This document shows positions 51,916-61,485 of a DNA stretch of 64,000 bases, in pieces. Under the pieces are notes generated by a model that saw nothing but the letters and a program-made list of their open reading frames with translations, did no database searches and had not been told where the DNA came from. How positions within the stretch are numbered: position 1 is the first letter of the stretch; every line of letters starts with the position of its first letter. This DNA is from Streptomyces sp. HUAS ZL42 (lineage in GTDB: Bacteria > Actinomycetota > Actinomycetes > Streptomycetales > Streptomycetaceae). The stretch lies in NCBI RefSeq assembly GCF_040782645.1, contig NZ_CP160403.1, forward strand, positions 1,550,001 through 1,614,000. The letters run 5' to 3'. Position numbers and translations under genes: made by a program.

Positions 51916-52257
51916 TCACCAGTCCCGTGTCGCGATGAGTTCCTCGACGTCCGCGTCCGTGAAGCCGTAGGCCTGGGCGACGAACCAGAAGTCCTCGGCT
52001 ATCTCCTCGCGGGCCACGGTCTCGATCTCGCTGTCGGCCTCCTCGAAGGCCGCCTGAAGGTCGTTGAACTCCTCGGTGGCCGCCTGAGTCAGGACGTAGA
52101 GCGCGGCCAGGTCGGCGGGCCGCTCGGCCTCGACGCGCGCGCACAGCCGCAGCAGGATGTCCCGGCCCCGGTCCACCACGCGATCGGGGTAGTAGTCGCT
52201 CCGGTACAGCCCCTTGAGAAACTTGTGTGCGGTCACCTGCTGGTTGCTGACGGGCAT
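51916..52257 (-). CDS. DUF5713 family protein
   Basis: A 113-residue acidic helical protein. KFLKGLYRSDYYPDRVVDRGRDILLRLC is the typical family core, followed by the acidic FNDLQAAFEEADSEIETVAREE. No catalytic motif. ATG 52257 follows GAGGAAG. Convergent with idh and divergent from the amidohydrolase gene. Function unknown. Confidence 0.8.
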   Translation of the reverse strand: MPVSNQQVTAHKFLKGLYRSDYYPDRVVDRGRDILLRLCARVEAERPADLAALYVLTQAATEEFNDLQAAFEEADSEIETVAREEIAEDFWFVAQAYGFTDADVEELIATRDW

Positions 52258-52341
52258 GCGGCTTCCTCGACGTGGGAGACGGATCCGATGTGGCACCTTG
52301 ATCATGCATCACGCCACTGACAACGCCCCGGGAGCAGCCTC

Positions 52342-53139
52342 ATGACCCCTGCCGCACCGTCCTTCGCGTTCCTGGCCGGAGCCGCGGAATCGCCGGTGAT
52401 CCTTCATGTGCCGCACTCCGCACGGGAGATACCGGCCGCGGTGCGTGAGGGCATCGTGCTCCACGACGAGGCGCTGGAGCGGGAGCTCGATCACATCACC
52501 GACGCGCACACCGCGGAGATCGCGGAAGAGGCGGCCGGGTCGTCGGCCGTGGCGCCCTGGCGGTTCGTCAACCGGCTCTCCCGGCTGGTCGTCGACCCGG
52601 AGCGGTTCCCGGACGAGCGGGAGGAGATGCGGGCCGTGGGAATGGGCGCGGTCTACACGCGGACCACGCACCGGACCGTGCTGCGACCGGAGGACACCGA
52701 CGCCGATCCCTTGGTCGCGCGCTACTTCCGGCCTTACGCACAGGCCATGACGGATGCCGTGGCCGGCCGGCTGGCCGCGGCCGGGCGAGCGGTGATCATC
52801 GACGTGCACTCCTATCCGAGCGAAGCGCTGCCCTACGAGCTGCACGGGGAGGGGCCCCGGCCGCCGGTCTGCCTCGGCACCGACTCGTTCCACACTCCGC
52901 CCGAGCTGGTGGCGGCCGCGCGGGAGGCGTTCGCGGAGTGCGGGGAGTCCGGACTGGACAGCCCGTTCAGCGGGACGTACGTGCCGCTCGACTTCTACGG
53001 CAAGGAGCCGCGCGTGACCGCCCTGATGGTGGAGATCCGCCGGGACACGTACATGACCGAGCCGGGCGGCCCCGCCGGCCCCGGCCTCACCCGCCTCGCC
53101 TCGGCCCTGGCACGGCTGGTCGACGCCCTGTCGCGTTGA
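52342..53139 (+). CDS. N-formylglutamate amidohydrolase-like protein
   Basis: 265 residues with ILHVPHSAREIP, ELDHITDAHT, NRLSRLVVDPERF and IIDVHSYPSEALPY, the zinc-site landmarks of the HutG/FGase family. It could hydrolyse N-formylglutamate or a related formyl/acyl amino acid. No other histidine-degradation genes are nearby, so the substrate is uncertain. Confidence 0.88.
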   Translation: MTPAAPSFAFLAGAAESPVILHVPHSAREIPAAVREGIVLHDEALERELDHITDAHTAEIAEEAAGSSAVAPWRFVNRLSRLVVDPERFPDEREEMRAVGMGAVYTRTTHRTVLRPEDTDADPLVARYFRPYAQAMTDAVAGRLAAAGRAVIIDVHSYPSEALPYELHGEGPRPPVCLGTDSFHTPPELVAAAREAFAECGESGLDSPFSGTYVPLDFYGKEPRVTALMVEIRRDTYMTEPGGPAGPGLTRLASALARLVDALSR

Positions 53140-53167: not shown

Positions 53168-53689
53168 CTAGGCGCGCAGCCACTCCGTGACGACCACCTC
53201 GTCGCCGGTGCGCAGTCGGAGGGCGAAGGGGCCGGTGGGTGGGGCGTCGCTGGTGAAGCGGCCCATGGAGTCCGCCGTCAGGGTCACGCCCGTCTGGGGG
53301 CCGCTGAGGACCTCGATGCCGGCCGTCTGTGGTGGGAGCACCTGACCCATCAGGCCCTCGGCCGTCACTTCGACGTCGACGGTCAGCTGGCCCGTGTGGA
53401 ACGTCAGCATCCGCGGAACGTCCGTCGCTCCCCTCACCGGGATGGCGTCGACCAGCGAGTCGAACGTCAGCTCGGCGATACGGGCGTCGAGGTCGTGCAG
53501 CGCGTACGCCTCGACGGCGATCCGGCGCAGTTCGGCCGGCACGGGGTCCAGGATCGCGGCGGCCTGGCGGAGTTCGTGCTCCAGGCGGCCCACGTCGAAC
53601 TCCGCGTCGGCGAAGGTCTCGTCGTCGGCTTCGTCGAACGCGTCGTCGTGGTCGAAGACGTCGTCGTTCGTTGCGTTCATGTCGTTCAC
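53168..53689 (-). CDS. Unknown protein encoded with the sigma factor
   Basis: A 173-residue soluble protein with a very acidic start (DDVFDHDDAFDEADDETFADAE), then a helical segment (ILDPVPAELRRIAVEAYALHDLDARI), then a beta-rich domain. No zinc-binding anti-sigma motif or membrane segment is seen. GTG 53689 overlaps the sigma factor stop (GTGA) and has GGGGAG upstream. By position it is the natural partner or antagonist of the sigma factor. Confidence 0.75.
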   Translation of the reverse strand: MNDMNATNDDVFDHDDAFDEADDETFADAEFDVGRLEHELRQAAAILDPVPAELRRIAVEAYALHDLDARIAELTFDSLVDAIPVRGATDVPRMLTFHTGQLTVDVEVTAEGLMGQVLPPQTAGIEVLSGPQTGVTLTADSMGRFTSDAPPTGPFALRLRTGDEVVVTEWLRA

Positions 53690-54345
53690 AGCACTCCCCG
53701 TGCGTCGAGTCGGGCCCGCAGGCGGCGCAGACATCGCTGGCGCAACGGCCCGATGCTGCCCACGGCGATGCCCAGCGCGGCGGACACCTCCTGGTAGCTG
53801 GGCGGGGGCGAGGCCATCAGGACGCGCAGCAACTGACGGCAGCGTTCCCCGAGTTCCTCGAACTCCTGCCACACGTACCGGATGCGCTCGGTCTCGGCGG
53901 CCGCCTCCTCCGAATCCAGCAGCGACTGCTCGGGCGTACGGTCCTCGCTGGCCCGGTCCAGGACCTGAGGATCGTCGGTGAGGGTCAGCCGCCTTAAGCT
54001 CTTGAGCACCTTCAGGCTCTCGTGGCGCGCGGTGCTCGCCAGCCACGATCCCGCCTTGTCCGGCTCACGGATCCGCCCCAGGTGCTGGGCGAAGCGGAAC
54101 CACACGGTCTGGTACACCTCGTGCGCGTCGGCGTCGGAGAGCCGGTGCGCGCGTACGACGGACCACACCAGTGGGCTCAGCCCCTCCACCAGCGCCTTCC
54201 AGGCCGCCGCGTCGCCGCCGACTGCGGACTGGACGAGCACGCCGACATCTCCACGCTCCACGGCCCCACCCCTCGAGTACGGCAAGTCATCGTACGCCGT
54301 GGCCGGGGCCGCTTCCGCCTTCGTACCGGAGTGAAGAGCGCTCAT
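53686..54345 (-). CDS. Sigma-70 family (ECF-like) RNA polymerase sigma factor
   Basis: A 219-residue two-domain sigma factor. Region 2 is around VWSVVRAHRLSDADAHEVYQT (about residues 50-110), and region 4 is near the C-terminus (CRQLLRVLMA... SYQEVSAALGIAVGSIGPLRQ). ATG 54345 overlaps the subtilase stop (ATGA). The protease-sigma-unknown order suggests that the sigma factor drives its own module. Confidence 0.9.
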   Translation of the reverse strand: MSALHSGTKAEAAPATAYDDLPYSRGGAVERGDVGVLVQSAVGGDAAAWKALVEGLSPLVWSVVRAHRLSDADAHEVYQTVWFRFAQHLGRIREPDKAGSWLASTARHESLKVLKSLRRLTLTDDPQVLDRASEDRTPEQSLLDSEEAAAETERIRYVWQEFEELGERCRQLLRVLMASPPPSYQEVSAALGIAVGSIGPLRQRCLRRLRARLDARGVL

Positions 54346-55760
54346 GCGGGCGTGACCGGAACCGGGCGCCAGGTGTACGGACGCAGCGCCGGTACGTGCG
54401 CCCCGCGCACCTCCGCGAACTCGGTGTTCGCGGCGAGCAGTTGCCTCGCCGCCACGCGCGGGTCGGTCTCCTTGTTCGCCGTCATGTGGGCGGCGACCAG
54501 ACCGGCGGCGACAGGGGTGGCGAACGAGGTGCCGCTCCAGTGCGCGAATCCCTCGAACATCACCTGGTCCGGCTTGGCGGAGGCCCCGTCGTCGCTCAAC
54601 ACACCGGTGTGCCGCGGGTACTGGCAGGTGCAGTGGTAGGCGAAGCCGAAGCGGCAGGCGTCGTACGTGGAATGCCGGTAGACGTACGGGACGGGCGCGT
54701 CGAAGCCGGTGAGGGAGCTGACGAGGCGCTCGCCGGGGGCGTAGACCTTCACCCATGCGCCGTGGTTGCTGAAGCAGGCGCCGAACTCGCCGTCGCTGCG
54801 CAGGGCGCCGACCGACAGGACCACGTCCGCGTAGTCGGGCAGGGAGGCGTAGGCGGCCGGCCAGAACGGTGTGGCACTGGCGTTGTTGCCGGCGGCGGCC
54901 ACCAGCAGGGTGTGCCGGCTGCGCAGCTCCTGCATGAAGGCGTCCACGCCGAGCAGGCCGTCGACGCGGCCGTTGGGCGTGCCGGCGGAGAGGCTGAGGA
55001 TGTCCGGCCAGCCGCTCTCCTCGACGGTGTCGAAGAGGAGCTCGCCGAACTGGTCCTCCAGGACGGCGCCCGCGTCGTTGAGCGTGTTGCGCACCGTGAT
55101 GTCGGTGTTGGGCGCGACGGCGGCGAGGAGCCCCGCGATGAACGTGCCGTGCCCGACGTACTGCTGGAGGATCCCGTTGTCGTCGGTCTCCTTGATCTGG
55201 CCGTCGCCCTCGGTGTGGGCCAGCAGCGGGTACGAGCGGTAGTCGTGCGTCAGGCCGTTGTCGATGACGAGGACGCCGACGGCGGTGTCCTGGTCGTACG
55301 CGCCCTCGGCGGCAGCGGGGTTCGGCGGGAGGGCGACCGGGGCGGGCGCCGGCTCGTCGCCGGGGCAGGAGTTGACCGCGATGCCCACCACGTGGTTGCG
55401 GCTGACCAGCCGGCGTCCCCGGCGTCCCTCCTGCTCCCTGAGCGCGCGCAGCGCACCGGCGACGGCCCGGTCCCCGTGCCGGTCGCCGTGTCCGGGGTCG
55501 CCCACCTGGATGCGGGTGATGCCGGAGCGGTTGGTCTCCGGGCTCGCGCGGCGCACATGGTCCGCCACCAGCCCGGTGGCCGCCGTGAAGTGCTCGCGGA
55601 CGGTGTCCTCGACGGTCCGGGCCTCCTCGCCGTCGCGGGCGAGCACGACGCCCTTCTCGTAGATGAACTCGGCGGCGTCGTCCGGCCCCAGCGCCAGGGG
55701 CACGTCGGGCATCGAGCGCTGGATCTGATCGAACTGCTCGTGGAATCGGTGAGGTGCCAT
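54342..55760 (-). CDS. S8 (subtilisin-like) serine peptidase without signal peptide
   Basis: 472 residues with the full triad: Asp167 (VLVIDNG), His204 (GHGTFIAG) and Ser412 (GTSFATP). The N-terminus (MAPHRFHEQFDQIQRS) is not a signal peptide, and there is no transmembrane tail, so the enzyme should be cytoplasmic. The first about 130 residues are an extra domain that could be an adaptor or inhibitor region. ATG 55760 follows GGGGGAGGA. First gene of the protease-sigma-unknown operon, divergent from the TPR-CHAT gene. Confidence 0.92.
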   Translation of the reverse strand: MAPHRFHEQFDQIQRSMPDVPLALGPDDAAEFIYEKGVVLARDGEEARTVEDTVREHFTAATGLVADHVRRASPETNRSGITRIQVGDPGHGDRHGDRAVAGALRALREQEGRRGRRLVSRNHVVGIAVNSCPGDEPAPAPVALPPNPAAAEGAYDQDTAVGVLVIDNGLTHDYRSYPLLAHTEGDGQIKETDDNGILQQYVGHGTFIAGLLAAVAPNTDITVRNTLNDAGAVLEDQFGELLFDTVEESGWPDILSLSAGTPNGRVDGLLGVDAFMQELRSRHTLLVAAAGNNASATPFWPAAYASLPDYADVVLSVGALRSDGEFGACFSNHGAWVKVYAPGERLVSSLTGFDAPVPYVYRHSTYDACRFGFAYHCTCQYPRHTGVLSDDGASAKPDQVMFEGFAHWSGTSFATPVAAGLVAAHMTANKETDPRVAARQLLAANTEFAEVRGAHVPALRPYTWRPVPVTPA

Positions 55761-55905
55761 GGCGTGTCCTCCCCCTGAGGCGGTGGTACTCAGTCAGTCA
55801 GAGCCGCGGAGCGTCCGCTTGATACAGCTGATGCGTAACCGGTGCTTCCACCGCTGCGGCGCCAAACCGGTGTGTCGTGCAGACGCGAGCACTACCATCC
55901 GTGGA

Positions 55906-58509
55906 GTGACAGCGGGAAGCAACTCGGTTCTCGAACTGCTGCCGATGGTGTTCGCCGCCCCGAACGACGCGCTGACGCGGGCGCAGGAGCTGCTGGACAC
56001 CGATCCGCCGCCGTTGCACGCCTCGGTCGCCCACCAGGTGATCGGCATCTGGCAGCGGGACTGGGGCGACATGCGGCTCGCCCTGGAGCATCTGCGGCGT
56101 GCCCGGGACCTGGCGGCGCGGGCGGAGTCGGCCGAGCGGGAGGCGGACGTGCTCGCCGCGCTGGGCGTGGCGCTGGTGCACGCGGGCCGCACCCGGCAGG
56201 GGCTGGCCGCGCTCGACCGCGGTGTCACCATCGGTACGGGCCACACCCGCGCGCGCGTCCTGTTCCGGCGGGCCTACGCCTGGTGGGTGCTCGGCCATCA
56301 TCGCGAGGCGCTGGAGGACGTGCGCAGGGCCACACCCGTGCTGCGGCAGGCGGACGACGTCATCTGGACGGCGCGGGCACTGACGCTGCGCGCCACGGTG
56401 CACCTCGCGCTGGGCGCCGTGGACCGCGCCGACGCCGACTTCACCGCGGCGGAGAGGCTGTGGGACACCACGGGCCAGGAGCACGACAAGGCAGACGCCG
56501 TGGAGAGCCGGGGCCTGGCCGCGTTCCGCTCGGGCGACATCCCTGCGGCGCTGCGCCTGCTCGACGAGGCCGCGGAGCGGTACGCCAAGCTCGGCACACC
56601 GACGTTCATGCTCAACATCCGGCGCTGCGAGGTGCTGATGGCCGCCGGGCTGGCACCCGAGGCGCTGGCCGAGGCGGACGCGGCGATCGGGGTGCTCGAC
56701 GGAATCGGCGGACAGTCCACCCGCAAGGCGGAGCTGCTGCTGGCCGCCGCCCGCGCGGCGCGCAGGGCGGGCGATCCGCACACCGCGATCGCCCGTGCCG
56801 ACCTGGCCGTACGGCTGTTCGCCGGACAGCGGCGCTCCTGGTGGGAGACGCATGCCCGGCTGGTGCTGATCGAGGCGCGGGTCGCCGCGGGGCGCGGCTC
56901 GGGGCGGCTGGTGGCCGACGCGGCCGCGGTGGCCGACCGGCTCGCGTCCTTCGGCGCGCCGGCCGCGCCGGAGGCGTCGCTGCTGGCCGGGCGGATCGCG
57001 CTCGCCCTGGGCTGGACCGCCGACGCGGAGCGGCATCTGGCCGTCGCGGCCCGCAGCCGGCGCGGCGGTCCGCCGTTGGCGCGGATGACGGGCTGGGCCG
57101 CTCAGGCCCTGTCGGCGCAGGTCGCGGGATCGAGCCGGGGTGTCCTCGAGGCATGCCGGCGTGGACTCGATGTGCTCGACGACCACCGGATGACGCTCGG
57201 CGCCTCGGAGTTGCGCGCCCGAGCCACCGAACAGGGCGCGGAACTGGCCGCGCTGGCGCAGCGGGCGAGCCTGGCGGGCGGTGGTCCACGGCGGTTGCTG
57301 GAGTGGAGCGAGCGCTGGCGGGCCACGGTGCTGTCCGCGCCGCCCACCCGGCCGCCCGCCGATCCGGCGCTGCTGAGCGGCCTGACCGCGTTCCGGGAGA
57401 TCGCCTCCCGCGCGGAGGAGGCCCGCAGGGACGGCCGGCCGGTGCCGGCGCTGGAGCGGGAACAGCGGCGTCTGGAGCGGGAGGTACGCTCCCGGACCCT
57501 GCACATCCGCGGCGACGCGCCCGGCGACGGGGACCGGTTCGACGTGAGCCGGCTGCTGGAGCGGCTGGGCGAGGCGCGGCTGGTCGAACTCGCCGTGCTC
57601 GACGGGCGCGTTCAGGTGCTGCTGTGCGGGCAGGGGCGGGTGCGGCGGTTCGAGGCCGGGCTGCTGGCCGAGGCGGAGACCGAGGCCGAGCACGTACAGG
57701 CGGGGCTGCGGCGGCTGGCCCACCCGGGGGCGGAGGGCCGGCTGCCCGTGGTGGAGGCCGCCGGGCGCCGTCTGGAGGAGCTGCTGCTCGGTCCGGCGGC
57801 GGCCCATCTGGGCACCGGCCCGGTCGTGGTCGTACCGCCGGGGCGGTTGCACCGGGTGCCGTGGGCGCTGCTGCCGTCCCTGCGGGAGCGGGTGCTCAGC
57901 GTGTCGCCGTCGGCGAGCAGCTGGCTGCGCGCCCGGGAGACCGAACCGCCGACGGGCGGCGGGCACGTCCTGGTGCGGGGACCGGGCCTGGCGACGGGCG
58001 GTGCCGAGGTGCCCGAACTTGCCCAGTGGTACGGCGGGCCGACGGTCCTGGAGGACGACGACGCGCGCGTGCCCCGCGTCCTGGAGGAGCTCGACGGCGC
58101 GGCACTGGCCCACATCGCCGCGCACGGCACGTTCCGCGCCGACAGCCCGCTCTTCTCGTCCCTGCGGATGGCCGACGGGCCGATCGTCGTGCACGACTTC
58201 GAGCGCCTCGATCGCACCCCGTACCGGATCATCCTGTCCTGCTGCGACACCGCCCGGTTCGCCTCGGTCGGCGCCGACGAACTCCTCGGTCTGGTCACGG
58301 CCCTGCTGCCGCTGGGCACGGCGGGCGTGGTGGCGTGCAGCGCGCCGGTCAACGACGCGGCGGTGGTGCCGCTGATGCTCGCCCTGCACAAGGGGCTGAG
58401 CGCCGGCCTGTCGCTGGCGGAGGCGCTGCGCGACGCGCGGGCGGCGCTGCCGGGCGACGCGACGCACCAGGCGACGGGGTGGGCGTTCACGGCGTTCGGG
58501 GCGGCGTGA
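55906..58509 (+). CDS. TPR-CHAT caspase-like peptidase
   Basis: 867 residues. About residues 10-480 are helical TPR-like repeats, followed by a CHAT domain with the dyad His740 (HIAAHGTF) and Cys780 (LSCCDTA). CHAT peptidases are caspase relatives that in bacteria act in conflict and cell-death systems. GTG 55906 has no clear ribosome site; leaderless translation is possible. The motif CGCTTGATACAG (55816-55827) recurs upstream of the LuxR/metzincin pair. It converges on the LuxR-type gene with 8 bases between stops. Confidence 0.88.
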   Translation: MTAGSNSVLELLPMVFAAPNDALTRAQELLDTDPPPLHASVAHQVIGIWQRDWGDMRLALEHLRRARDLAARAESAEREADVLAALGVALVHAGRTRQGLAALDRGVTIGTGHTRARVLFRRAYAWWVLGHHREALEDVRRATPVLRQADDVIWTARALTLRATVHLALGAVDRADADFTAAERLWDTTGQEHDKADAVESRGLAAFRSGDIPAALRLLDEAAERYAKLGTPTFMLNIRRCEVLMAAGLAPEALAEADAAIGVLDGIGGQSTRKAELLLAAARAARRAGDPHTAIARADLAVRLFAGQRRSWWETHARLVLIEARVAAGRGSGRLVADAAAVADRLASFGAPAAPEASLLAGRIALALGWTADAERHLAVAARSRRGGPPLARMTGWAAQALSAQVAGSSRGVLEACRRGLDVLDDHRMTLGASELRARATEQGAELAALAQRASLAGGGPRRLLEWSERWRATVLSAPPTRPPADPALLSGLTAFREIASRAEEARRDGRPVPALEREQRRLEREVRSRTLHIRGDAPGDGDRFDVSRLLERLGEARLVELAVLDGRVQVLLCGQGRVRRFEAGLLAEAETEAEHVQAGLRRLAHPGAEGRLPVVEAAGRRLEELLLGPAAAHLGTGPVVVVPPGRLHRVPWALLPSLRERVLSVSPSASSWLRARETEPPTGGGHVLVRGPGLATGGAEVPELAQWYGGPTVLEDDDARVPRVLEELDGAALAHIAAHGTFRADSPLFSSLRMADGPIVVHDFERLDRTPYRIILSCCDTARFASVGADELLGLVTALLPLGTAGVVACSAPVNDAAVVPLMLALHKGLSAGLSLAEALRDARAALPGDATHQATGWAFTAFGAA

Positions 58510-58517
58510 GGGACACC

Positions 58518-60323
58518 TCAGGCCGACCGGTACCGCGGCGGCTCCTCCATCAGCCAGGTCAGCTCGCCCCGGTTGCTCGCCCCGAGGCGGGTGTAGGCGC
58601 TGTACAGGTGGTTGCCGACGGTGCGGATCGACAGGGTGAGGCGTTCCGCGATCTGCCGGTTGCTCAGGCCGGCGGCCGCGAGGGTGACGGTCTGCCGCTG
58701 GCGGGCGGTGAGTTCGCCCAGGACCAGGCCGGAGAGGGCCGGGGTGCGGGCGCCCTGGCAGCGGCGGGCGAGGGCCACGGCACGCGTGCGTGAGGTGCGG
58801 GCGGCGCTCGGGTCGCGGTGGGCCCGTACGGCCTGGGCGTGCGCCTCGGCCGCGAAGAGCAGGAAGCCGCGCTCCTCCAGGGCCCGTGCCGCCCGGTCCA
58901 GGGCGGGCCCGTCACCGCGGGCGAGCGCGTCGGCGTGCCGGGCGAACACGCCGTCGGCCGGAAGCCGGTCCACGGCGAGCTCGGCAGCGCCCAGGCGTAC
59001 GGCGTCGTACGCGCTGTCCTCGTCGACCGCCGCCAGCGCTCCCTCGAGGTCGCCCCGCGCTGCGGCAAGCCAGACGGCGGCGCCGGACGGGTCCCCGTGG
59101 GCGGTGGGCATCTCGCCCAACTGGGCTGTGCTCAAGGCGAGTTCGACGCGGCAGGAATCGTCGCCCGGGGTGTTGCGCAGTCCCTCCCGCGCCCACGCCG
59201 CCGCCTCCCGCAGCTCGCCCCGCAGACGCGCGAACCGCGCGCGCACGGCCGCGTATCCGGCCGGCACCGGTGCGCCCTGCTCCGCGAGCCACTCCCCCAC
59301 CCAGGTCGCCGGCAGGCGGACGTCGTCCCGCTCGACGCGGTTCTCCAGGACCGCCTGCTCGGCCTTGAGGGCCAGGGCGCGGTCGTCCGGTGTGCCGGCG
59401 AGCCGCCTTGCCCGCAGCCTTCCGGCCGCGGCCCGCAGCGCCGGGCCGTGCAGGGGGTGGGTGAGGCGGACGGTGCCGTGGTCGTCGGTGCGGATCAGGC
59501 CGTCGCTTTCGAGGCGTTCGAGGATGCGCAGGTCGAGCGTGTCGATGTCCAGCGGGAGGGGTTCGGCGAAGGCGAGGCGGTCGAGGGTCTCCCGCTCGTC
59601 GGCGTCGATGCGGTCGAGGACCGGCGCGGTGCGCTCCCGTACGGTCGCGGTGAGCGGCACCGGGCCCCGCCACGCCCACGTGTCCGCGTCCGGGACGCGG
59701 GTGAGCCGCTCGCGCACCGCGCCCAGCAGCTCGCGCAGCAGCCTCAGGTCGCCCTCGCACAGACGGTGCAGGCGGTTGACGGTGAGGGGTTCGATGCCGG
59801 ACAGCAGTCGTGCCGTCTCCTCGTGGGGCAGCGGTTCGAGGACGAGACGCGGCAGCAGCTCGCCGGTCCACAGCCGGGACACCGCGCCGGGCGCCGGGGT
59901 GCCGTCCGTCGCGACGACGATCAGCCGGGTGCGGCCGTGCACGGCGAGCTGGTGGACCAGGGCGGCGGAGGCGTCGTCGAGGAGGTGGGCGTCGTCGACC
60001 AGCAACAGCCTGACCCCGCAGAGCAGTTGGACCGCGCGGTGCAGGGAGACCGGCTCGGGCAGCAGGTGGGTGAACGCGGCGAACGGGATGTGGCGGGTCT
60101 CGGGCGTCCCGGCGGCCCGGGCGCAGTCGGTCCCGCGGACCGCCTCGGTGACGAGCCGGGTCTTGCCGCAACCCGCGGGTCCGGTCACCACGATGCCGGT
60201 GCGGCCCGCGGCCGAGGACCGGCGGACCAGCTCCAGTTCCTCCTCCCGGCCGGTGAAGGGCCAGGGCAGCTCGAGTGTCTTCGCGTCCCGTTCGAAAATC
60301 GTCACGGGAGATAGAGCGCCCAT
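58518..60323 (-). CDS. LuxR-family regulator with N-terminal ATPase domain
   Basis: About 601 residues: P-loop ATPase (GPAGCGKTR, LLLVDDAHLLDDASA), a helical middle, and a C-terminal LuxR HTH (LTARQRQTVTLAAAGLSN, QIAERLTLSIRTVGNHL). Smaller than the LAL protein at 35387 but with the same logic. ATG 60323 or GTG 60329 are both possible starts. Divergent from the metzincin gene and convergent with the TPR-CHAT gene, so it is a likely regulator of this module. Confidence 0.88.
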   Translation of the reverse strand: MGALSPVTIFERDAKTLELPWPFTGREEELELVRRSSAAGRTGIVVTGPAGCGKTRLVTEAVRGTDCARAAGTPETRHIPFAAFTHLLPEPVSLHRAVQLLCGVRLLLVDDAHLLDDASAALVHQLAVHGRTRLIVVATDGTPAPGAVSRLWTGELLPRLVLEPLPHEETARLLSGIEPLTVNRLHRLCEGDLRLLRELLGAVRERLTRVPDADTWAWRGPVPLTATVRERTAPVLDRIDADERETLDRLAFAEPLPLDIDTLDLRILERLESDGLIRTDDHGTVRLTHPLHGPALRAAAGRLRARRLAGTPDDRALALKAEQAVLENRVERDDVRLPATWVGEWLAEQGAPVPAGYAAVRARFARLRGELREAAAWAREGLRNTPGDDSCRVELALSTAQLGEMPTAHGDPSGAAVWLAAARGDLEGALAAVDEDSAYDAVRLGAAELAVDRLPADGVFARHADALARGDGPALDRAARALEERGFLLFAAEAHAQAVRAHRDPSAARTSRTRAVALARRCQGARTPALSGLVLGELTARQRQTVTLAAAGLSNRQIAERLTLSIRTVGNHLYSAYTRLGASNRGELTWLMEEPPRYRSA

Positions 60324-60399
60324 ACTCACGCCTGATACAGAGTGACTTGAGTAGACCCCGACTCAGGCGCCCGGCACCGGCCGACGGCAGGCTGTTCGC

Positions 60400-61485
60400 A
60401 TGACCGGACGCTACTGCTCCCTCGCGCAGCAGCCGGCCCCCGCGTTCGCACCGGGGCTGGCCGCCGAGCGGCTCAGTGCGCTCATCGGCGGAAGGCCGAT
60501 GTGGGTCAACGGCACCGTTCTGCACTACTACTTCTTCGACGGCGACGCCGACGGATCCGTGATCCCCGTGCCGGGGACCGGCGCGACCCGCCAGGTGTCG
60601 TGGGCCGGCGCCAAGGAGCAGCGGGACGTGGTGCGCGAGTGCTTCCGGGAGTGGCAGGACCTCGGCATCGGCCTGTCCTTCGCCGAGGTGGGTGACCGCT
60701 CGGAGGCCGAACTGCGCATAGGGTTCCAGCTCGGCGACGGCTCCTGGTCGGCCGTGGGCCGGGACGCGCTCCGGATCGGCCTGAACGAGCGCACCATGAA
60801 CTTCGGCTGGGACCTGACCGCGCCCGGGGAGCGCGGGACGGCACTGCACGAGATCGGGCACGCGCTCGGCATGCTGCACGAGCATCAGAGCCCGTTCGCC
60901 GGCATCCACTGGGACGACGAGGCCGTGTACGCCGATCTGGCGGGCCCGCCGAACTTCTGGAGCCGCGACAAGACGTTCTTCAACATCCTGCGCAAGCTGG
61001 ACCCGGCCGAGGTCAACGGCTCGGTGTGGGACCCGTTGTCCGTCATGGAGTACCCCTTCTCGTCGGGGCTGATCCTCGAGCCGGAGCAGTTCCGCGGCGG
61101 TCTGAACCCGCCCGGCACGCTCTCGCCCCTCGACAAGGATTTCGTGCTGCGCTGGTATCCGCCGCTCGATCCGCCGCGGCCGCCCGCGCTGGTGCCGTTC
61201 CGCTCGGCGCCGCTGCGCCTGGCCCCGGGTGAGCAGGCCGACTTCGTGATCGAGCCGCCGGAGACCCGCGAGTACTCGGTGGGCACGTTCGGCGAGAGCG
61301 ACACCGTGGTCGTGGTGTTCGAGGAACGGGACGGCGAGCCCCGCTTCCTCGCCGGCCAGGACGACGGCGGCACCCCGCGCAACGCCACGATCAGGGCCCG
61401 GCTCGTCAAGGGCCGCCGCTACTTCGTCCGTGTACGCCTGTACTCCGGCTGGGGTCCGGGCGAGACGGCGGTCATGTGCTGGTGA
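60400..61485 (+). CDS. Metzincin (M12A/astacin-like) metallopeptidase without signal peptide
   Basis: 361 residues. The zinc motif HEIGHALGMLH is at 150-160 (H150, E151, H154, H160), with the Met-turn in SVMEYP near 214. The N-terminus (MTGRYCSLAQQPAPAFAP) is not a signal peptide, so a cytoplasmic location is inferred. A C-terminal beta domain (about 270-361) resembles a carbohydrate- or target-binding module (LRLAPGEQADFVI, RYFVRVRLYSGWG). Divergent from the LuxR-type gene and ended by a strong hairpin. Confidence 0.9.
   Translation: MTGRYCSLAQQPAPAFAPGLAAERLSALIGGRPMWVNGTVLHYYFFDGDADGSVIPVPGTGATRQVSWAGAKEQRDVVRECFREWQDLGIGLSFAEVGDRSEAELRIGFQLGDGSWSAVGRDALRIGLNERTMNFGWDLTAPGERGTALHEIGHALGMLHEHQSPFAGIHWDDEAVYADLAGPPNFWSRDKTFFNILRKLDPAEVNGSVWDPLSVMEYPFSSGLILEPEQFRGGLNPPGTLSPLDKDFVLRWYPPLDPPRPPALVPFRSAPLRLAPGEQADFVIEPPETREYSVGTFGESDTVVVVFEERDGEPRFLAGQDDGGTPRNATIRARLVKGRRYFVRVRLYSGWGPGETAVMCW

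Follow-up and report, generated by a model that had tools for sequence, protein, structure and literature searches.

A putative proteolysis-gated sigma switch, encoded with a TPR-CHAT protease, in Streptomyces and its relatives

What is a sigma factor gene doing inside an operon of intracellular proteases? The question arises at positions 53168-61485 of a 64,000-nucleotide stretch of Streptomyces sp. HUAS ZL42 (contig NZ_CP160403.1, positions 1,550,001 to 1,614,000), the whole of which is called the window here. A count from the open reading frames of the window gives six genes in this interval, not the seven of a first-pass annotation. On the minus strand, an S8 subtilase gene (54342..55760) heads an operon that continues with genes for an extracytoplasmic function (ECF) sigma factor (53686..54345) and an acidic protein (53168..53689), in successive 4-base overlaps; these coordinates confirm the annotated overlaps and the position of the sigma gene within a protease operon. 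The plus strand encodes a TPR-CHAT cysteine protease (55906..58509), and the genes for AbsR2 (58518..60305, minus strand) and AbsR1 (60400..61485, plus strand) follow. We propose, with confidence evenly divided, that the locus encodes a proteolysis-gated sigma switch, probably of group ECF54, which is like the output of Craspase but free of CRISPR.

Co-inheritance of four genes

Do all six genes form one unit? The subtilase, ECF sigma factor, acidic protein and TPR-CHAT protease constitute a co-inherited quartet that is widely conserved. Homologues of the acidic protein occur in 31/61 relatives; of 34 matches in other genomes, 32 were retrieved with their flanks, which hold the full quartet at 12/12 Streptomyces and 17/20 other loci. 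A search with the sigma motif GSIGP[TLM]RxRC gave 587 confirmed matches; in the best 80, which are named Streptomyces loci and include some cut by contig ends, the whole quartet is present in 76/80 and all six genes in 51/80. Sixty more distant regions hold all four genes (35), sigma, acidic and CHAT genes (11), only sigma and acidic genes (11) or other mixes (three); gene order is shuffled among loci, with sigma-then-acidic nearly constant. A class-wide survey of 296 genomes (acidic protein at E <= 1e-5, CHAT subfamily at E <= 1e-40) found the acidic protein in 99, the CHAT subfamily in 100 and both in 97, with five discordant genomes (Fisher p 7e-72, phylogeny ignored); in two of the three CHAT-only genomes a weak acidic gene adjoins CHAT. 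Within the own genus both are present in 11/28 genomes and neither in 17/28. Where CHAT has no linked acidic match, a subtilase gene adjoins it in 16/18 regions, the remaining two being those with a weak sigma-acidic pair, and the unit is therefore best described as two pairs, sigma-acidic and S8-CHAT. This class-wide linkage upholds the earlier idea that proteases retained in the cell form a module together with a sigma factor of their own.

Two S8-like frames stand in tandem beside an unlinked CHAT gene in L233 and L241 (perhaps also L234), and the CHAT matches of G278, G329, G206, G113, G315 and G298 contain one in-frame stop codon each, through either decay or a sequencing error.

The linkage of six families that had been expected in relatives holds for the quartet and fails for the other two. 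AbsR1 and AbsR2 each occur in 12/61 relatives, all of the own genus, and neither is found in the 24 other-genus genomes at E <= 1e-60, a result that led us to reject a single six-gene module; the first-pass annotation had itself named missing LuxR and metzincin linkage as evidence against its proposal, and this is what is seen outside Streptomyces. At one locus of another family (L219) a LuxR match does adjoin CHAT, but a weaker one (273 bits). Among own-genus genomes AbsR2 is present in 11/13 with the acidic gene vs 1/24 without it, the exception (G001) being 79% complete. As far as searched, only some Streptomyces have AbsR1 and AbsR2 alongside the quartet.

Pfam matches at the locus comprise Peptidase_S8, CHAT with TPR, Sigma70_r2, GerE and Astacin/M10. 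A Kyte-Doolittle scan found no strongly hydrophobic N-terminal stretch in the six proteins (no signal-peptide program was run), in line with the annotated lack of signal peptides. Would such a module serve in phage defence or programmed death, as first suggested? Type III-E CRISPR systems hold a TPR-CHAT protease and a sigma factor (PMC10028731), some of the predicted caspase conflict systems come with ECF sigma genes (PMC8195603), and the subtilase weakly matches a generic PADLOC subtilase model (39.8 bits; the LuxR protein also matches a generic model, at 31 bits). However, scanned as single proteins, CHAT, the sigma factor, the acidic protein and AbsR1 have no PADLOC match at E <= 0.01, and the 20 neighbour proteins scanned in relatives belong mostly to metabolic, cell-division or unknown families (among them DUF3071, enoyl-CoA hydratase, thymidine kinase and isocitrate dehydrogenase). 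Moreover, the outputs predicted below are regulators, namely an antibiotic repressor and a small RNA, and reports on S. coelicolor tie SCO6992, SCO6993 and SCO6995 to antibiotic production. We consider a defence or death module very improbable.

A shared promoter-like element

Which promoters would the sigma factor read? Alignment of 87 intergenic regions revealed two blocks 5' of the subtilase gene, GTATCA and CTCT, usually 16 bases apart. In the window, TGTATCA-N16-CTC lies upstream of the subtilase operon (55801..55826, minus strand) and again 8 bases ahead of the conserved GTG start of AbsR2 at 60305 (60314..60339, minus strand); scans of the window region found no consensus sigma-70 promoters and no terminators. 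The form GTATCA-N16-CTCT occurs exactly twice in the 9.87-Mb own genome, before these same two genes, and a reversed-pattern control also occurs twice. Across Streptomyces loci, GTATCA-N15..17-CTC precedes S8 in 79/88 and AbsR2 in 62/63, compared with CHAT in 0/87, sigma in 0/89, acidic in 0/91, FGase in 0/87, AbsR1 in 1/58 and 136/18,400 random 200-base stretches of the same loci. Over 150 whole Streptomyces genomes, TGTATCA-N16-CTC averages 3.11 sites in the 47 that have the acidic gene and 1.03 in the 103 that lack it (Mann-Whitney p 1e-15, phylogeny ignored), while the reversed-pattern control gives 2.43 vs 2.12 (p 0.08); at least two sites are present in 46/47 module-bearing genomes. Outside the genus, seven Catenulispora-like genomes have a well conserved TGTATCAGG...CTCTTGTAAGTGAGCGGG ~230-400 bases upstream of the predicted S8 start.

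Such counts cannot name the protein that binds the element, and the AbsR2 site also has a conserved GAGTA and flanking TACTCA, so how probable is another regulator? The architecture argues for a sigma factor, since the two blocks stand close before starts and the distance between them hardly varies; the enrichment in module-bearing Streptomyces argues for it too. The Catenulispora-like genomes with the element have the sigma factor and no AbsR2 at E <= 1e-60, and the published footprints of SCO6993 on its own promoter lie on sequences other than GTATCA-N16-CTC (PMC9628970). A regulator other than this sigma factor thus seems quite improbable to us.

The element leads to two kinds of candidate target beyond the operon. 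The first is absR2, which, as judged from the sequence, is tied to the quartet through this common promoter-like element. NCBIfam equivalog matches identify AbsR2 (1019.6 bits) and AbsR1 (740.8 bits) as members of the SCO6993 and SCO6992 families, respectively, and the LuxR-type ATPase once taken for a sensor is accordingly a regulator; SCO6993 represses actII-ORF4 and redD (PMC9628970). AbsR1 has the metzincin motif HEIGHALGMLH at residues 150-160, as annotated, and a Met-turn, SVMEY. Its counterpart SCO6992 raised antibiotic production in S. coelicolor and bound zinc, and the purified protein had beta-glucuronidase activity and no protease activity (PMC9705864), which makes the annotated total of three peptidases doubtful. 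NCBIfam likewise labels AbsR1 a beta-glucuronidase despite its metzincin zinc motif and Met-turn.

The second candidate target is a predicted G-repeat RNA gene outside the window (G000:C1:1975966-1976156; L345:1967-2157). A relaxed CTC search of the own genome placed a third element at G000:C1:1975966-1975991, 3' of what we take to be a chitinase-like gene; the other three non-locus sites of that search were not connected to the module. No reading frame suitable as a target follows the third site. Instead there are about nine repeats of ACGGGGGA type and a hairpin, TCGGGTCGGTCGGCCGCTGTCACGGGGAGCGACCGACC, and this region has no Rfam match at gathering score. Sites in G033, G013 and G027 are followed by the same layout. 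A first covariance model, built from these four seed hairpins with the promoter left out, returned two new strong matches (G001 and G007), both with the element directly upstream; it also gave weak matches of 33-37 bits in eight other genomes, four of which lack the module or belong to other genera and have no promoter motif nearby, and these matches were treated as noise. A second model of six hairpins, run on the 150 Streptomyces genomes, gave 22 matches, in 21/47 module-bearing vs 1/103 module-lacking genomes (Fisher p 1e-11), the latter searched by covariance model alone; the sole module-lacking genome is G001, where AbsR2 is likewise accompanied by the element. The association remains after removal of the four seeds (17/43 vs 1/103, p 9e-10) or of all six model sequences (16/42 vs 0/102, p 2e-10). 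Upstream of the hairpin, the element was found by script at 18/22 loci and by inspection at three more (one with TTC for CTC), and at the last locus the contig ends at the hairpin; the element is thus present at 21/21 assessable loci, or at 17/17 without the seeds, which have it by construction. Five more module-bearing genomes combine element and repeats with other hairpins. The own RNA has a folding z of -3.5 and 97.2% of cells pair in the hairpin alignment; only 3/19 pairs change on both sides, a number reached in 26/500 shuffles. This weak covariation is due to a stem that is almost uniform, most of its pairs never varying. We predict that the G-repeat element is a small RNA which accompanies the module.

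G-rich leaders were also noticed elsewhere. In the Catenulispora-like loci (L046-L052) a long G-rich leader with hairpin-like repeats lies between the sigma-type site and the subtilase gene, and its CGGGGGA runs resemble those of the Streptomyces RNA. In a Jiangella-like family (L175, L180, L189, L200, L202, L232) the sigma leader holds G-rich sequences, GTGACGGG...CCCGTCAC and similar, that look stem-loop-like by eye.

How far might the regulon extend? Forty extra strict-motif sites in module-bearing genomes comprise 14 inside predicted genes, 10 with a predicted start within 250 bases and 16 with neither; those that recur are the G-repeat RNA (G033, G013, G027) and AbsR2 on another contig (G014). 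Fourteen further site regions, all from module-bearing genomes, were picked visually because they seemed to recur or to be rich in G. They include five new G-repeat RNAs missed by the model and one already known, three sites upstream of genes we take to be HNH-like, two upstream of a presumably nitronate-monooxygenase-like gene, two hairpins without repeats and one site without a nearby start. In L381, L382 and L383, all module-bearing Streptomyces, TGTATCA-N16-CTC has a conserved spacer, GTGGTCGAAAACA, and stands before the HNH-like gene; in two module-bearing genomes (L387, L388) the motif is followed by a hairpin with a G-rich loop and no repeats. The FGase gene (window 51916-53139) lies near the cassette, at most seven genes away, in 72/92 Streptomyces loci, often with DUF5713.

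From protease to sigma factor

How would a protease control the sigma factor? Although no stop interrupts the CHAT frame from 55759 onward, Streptomyces sequences are strongly conserved only from GTG 55906, and the start was therefore placed there, giving 867 amino acids. Immediately 5' lies a conserved -10-like TACCAT (55893..55898, plus strand; ACTACCATC in 71/87 aligned regions), which suggests housekeeping, leaderless transcription of CHAT. Numbered from this start, CHAT His740 and Cys780 are where they had been annotated, as are S8 Asp167, His204 and Ser412, and none of these residues varies among the aligned relatives from outside Streptomyces (CHAT: His 74/74, Cys 74/74; S8: Asp 72/72, His 72/72, Ser 73/73).

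The structural model of CHAT combines a TPR superhelix with a CHAT domain (predicted local distance difference test, pLDDT, 89.2; predicted template modelling score 0.85). Apart from residues 1-4, its sole stretch below pLDDT 50 is residues 782-791, just past Cys780, as may be expected for a protease that needs activation. The top Protein Data Bank match is human separase (E 6e-16, query TM-score 0.38), a protease that cleaves after Arg; Csx29 in complex with Csx30 (E 2.4e-15, 0.43) and the anti-sigma factor DdvA (E 5.4e-15, 0.44) are also matched. These model-based likenesses support a protein that works like Craspase, not membership of that system.

What would CHAT cleave? The acidic protein (173 amino acids, isoelectric point 4.1) has a disordered acidic tail (residues 1-32), helices at 33-46 and 52-79, a linker (80-92) and a beta-domain (93-167). 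Arg86, within the linker, is invariant in 97/97 homologues, and residues 84-86 form the only stretch of at least three residues below pLDDT 50 in the model. As modelled, the protein is not an enzyme: its helices are connected to the beta-domain by the disordered linker that carries the invariant Arg. It is our candidate for both the sigma inhibitor and the CHAT substrate. The resemblance of CHAT to separase, some listed structures of which are securin complexes, raises a different possibility: the acidic protein could be a securin-like inhibitor or pseudosubstrate of CHAT, with the sigma factor regulated otherwise. Co-inheritance of the acidic protein and CHAT even when unlinked would fit this arrangement. 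However, where the pairs are apart the acidic gene stays with sigma and CHAT with S8, and we find the securin-like arrangement distinctly unlikely.

In the proposed switch, TPR-CHAT would be made constitutively, seemingly from its housekeeping promoter, and its TPR superhelix would sense a cue. CHAT would then cleave the acidic protein in the disordered linker, most likely after Arg86, and the cut would part the N-terminal helices from the beta-domain and free the ECF sigma factor. The freed sigma factor would transcribe from TGTATCA-N16-CTC promoters, amplifying its own subtilase-sigma-inhibitor operon and switching on the unlinked G-repeat RNA and, in Streptomyces, the antibiotic repressor gene absR2. 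The subtilase would act as a second protease that may remove the cleaved inhibitor or have other protein targets. Co-inheritance, intact catalytic residues, the common promoter-like element and RNA co-occurrence were computed here; from them we infer that the sigma factor reads the element, that the acidic protein inhibits it, that CHAT cleaves this protein at Arg86, and the roles of subtilase and RNA. Among mechanisms, a link of CHAT, acidic protein and sigma factor is the best.

Several observations weigh against the switch. Strict N16-CTCT is found at 74/88 S8 loci and at only 17/63 AbsR2 loci, and at least two TGTATCA-N16-CTC sites also occur in 28/103 module-lacking Streptomyces. The element was derived from the same Streptomyces loci in which it was counted, and tests elsewhere therefore matter; outside Streptomyces an N16-17 CTCT motif lies near S8 or sigma in 6/78 loci vs 11/907 control genes, and the promoter specificity of the sigma factor may differ there. 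The four RNA seeds were sought in module-bearing genomes only, and the model did not find the hairpin in 26/47 of these. The co-occurrence statistics, Fisher and Mann-Whitney alike, take no account of phylogeny. Separase and Csx29 matches of CHAT have query-normalised TM-scores of 0.30-0.53 among the matches listed, at ~14% identity. No known anti-sigma fold is listed for the acidic protein, its helices not having been searched alone, and the published ECF54 proposal has no anti-sigma factor (PMC8999054).

That proposal, drawn from the same gene context, would have the proteases degrade the sigma factor itself, with the acidic protein as an adaptor or chaperone, and the missing anti-sigma fold agrees with it. 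At almost every locus, however, the acidic gene lies directly 3' of sigma, where anti-sigma genes are usually situated, and this counts against sigma degradation, as does the invariant Arg in a disordered linker. Some members of the acidic family are named by NCBI after a carboxypeptidase regulatory-like domain, and the "carboxypeptidase" of the published context is most likely this non-enzymatic protein, a further point against degradation. We hold degradation of the sigma factor to be unlikely and retain its release from the acidic protein as the preferred mechanism.

Relation to known systems and meaning

How much of this has been described? For the ECF54 group (Huang 2015 and Casas-Pastor 2021, as cited in PMC8999054), carboxypeptidase, subtilase and CHAT proteins have been described in the gene context, and a proteolytic control that dispenses with an anti-sigma factor has been proposed, regulation by proteolysis being mainly actinobacterial (PMC8999054). 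The sigma factor of the window, with its conserved C-terminal-region motif VGSIGPxRxRCL, stands in that same context and thus probably belongs to ECF54; SCO6996 has been called a sigma factor (PMC9739823), and gene order would make SCO6994 the S. coelicolor counterpart of CHAT, SCO6995 that of the subtilase, SCO6996 that of the sigma factor and SCO6997 that of the acidic protein. In contrast to the published account, we take its carboxypeptidase to be a small protein without enzymatic function whose linker carries an invariant Arg. The present analysis further contributes the promoter-like element, the tie to absR2 and the predicted small RNA. The context of the quartet is already in print and the parts of the mechanism are apparently new; the literature searched, the primary ECF54 papers lying outside it, held no report of the linker Arg, the promoter-like element, the absR2 link or the RNA.

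In type III-E systems Csx29 cleaves Csx30, an inhibitor of CASP-sigma (PMC10028731). The locus resembles this Craspase arrangement in its TPR-CHAT protein with intact His and Cys, an ECF sigma factor alongside, a partner protein and a similar protease fold. It differs in its extra subtilase, in an acidic protein for which kinship to Csx30 is not indicated, and in having no cas gene among its six; Pfam, NCBIfam and PADLOC found no Cas7-11 among the six proteins, with no array search made and the rest of the genome not searched. DdvA (PDB 8rw5, 8rot), matched by the CHAT model, is by title a transmembrane anti-sigma factor, whereas at this locus two different genes encode the protease and the candidate inhibitor, and neither protein is predicted to have an N-terminal membrane segment. 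Human separase, the best structural match, is a eukaryotic cohesin protease with no sigma factor. AbsR1 and AbsR2 match SCO6992 and SCO6993 as equivalogs in the same opposed gene arrangement, but the published accounts, in the parts available, do not link these to a protease-sigma cassette.

A bolder version of the switch, which we rate as rather doubtful, is an old, class-wide, CRISPR-free circuit in which a separase-type cut at one Arg would free a sigma factor that makes its operon, a repressor and ACGGGGGA-repeat RNAs acting as sponges for an RNA-binding protein or ribosomes. Through the switch proposed here, a sigma group so far uncharacterised would become a circuit that can be tested, its substrate, cut site and promoter all being named; the switch also suggests caspase-like sigma control outside CRISPR. 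For Streptomyces, it offers an upstream input to the antibiotic regulator absR2, together with an undescribed small RNA family predicted to go with the module.

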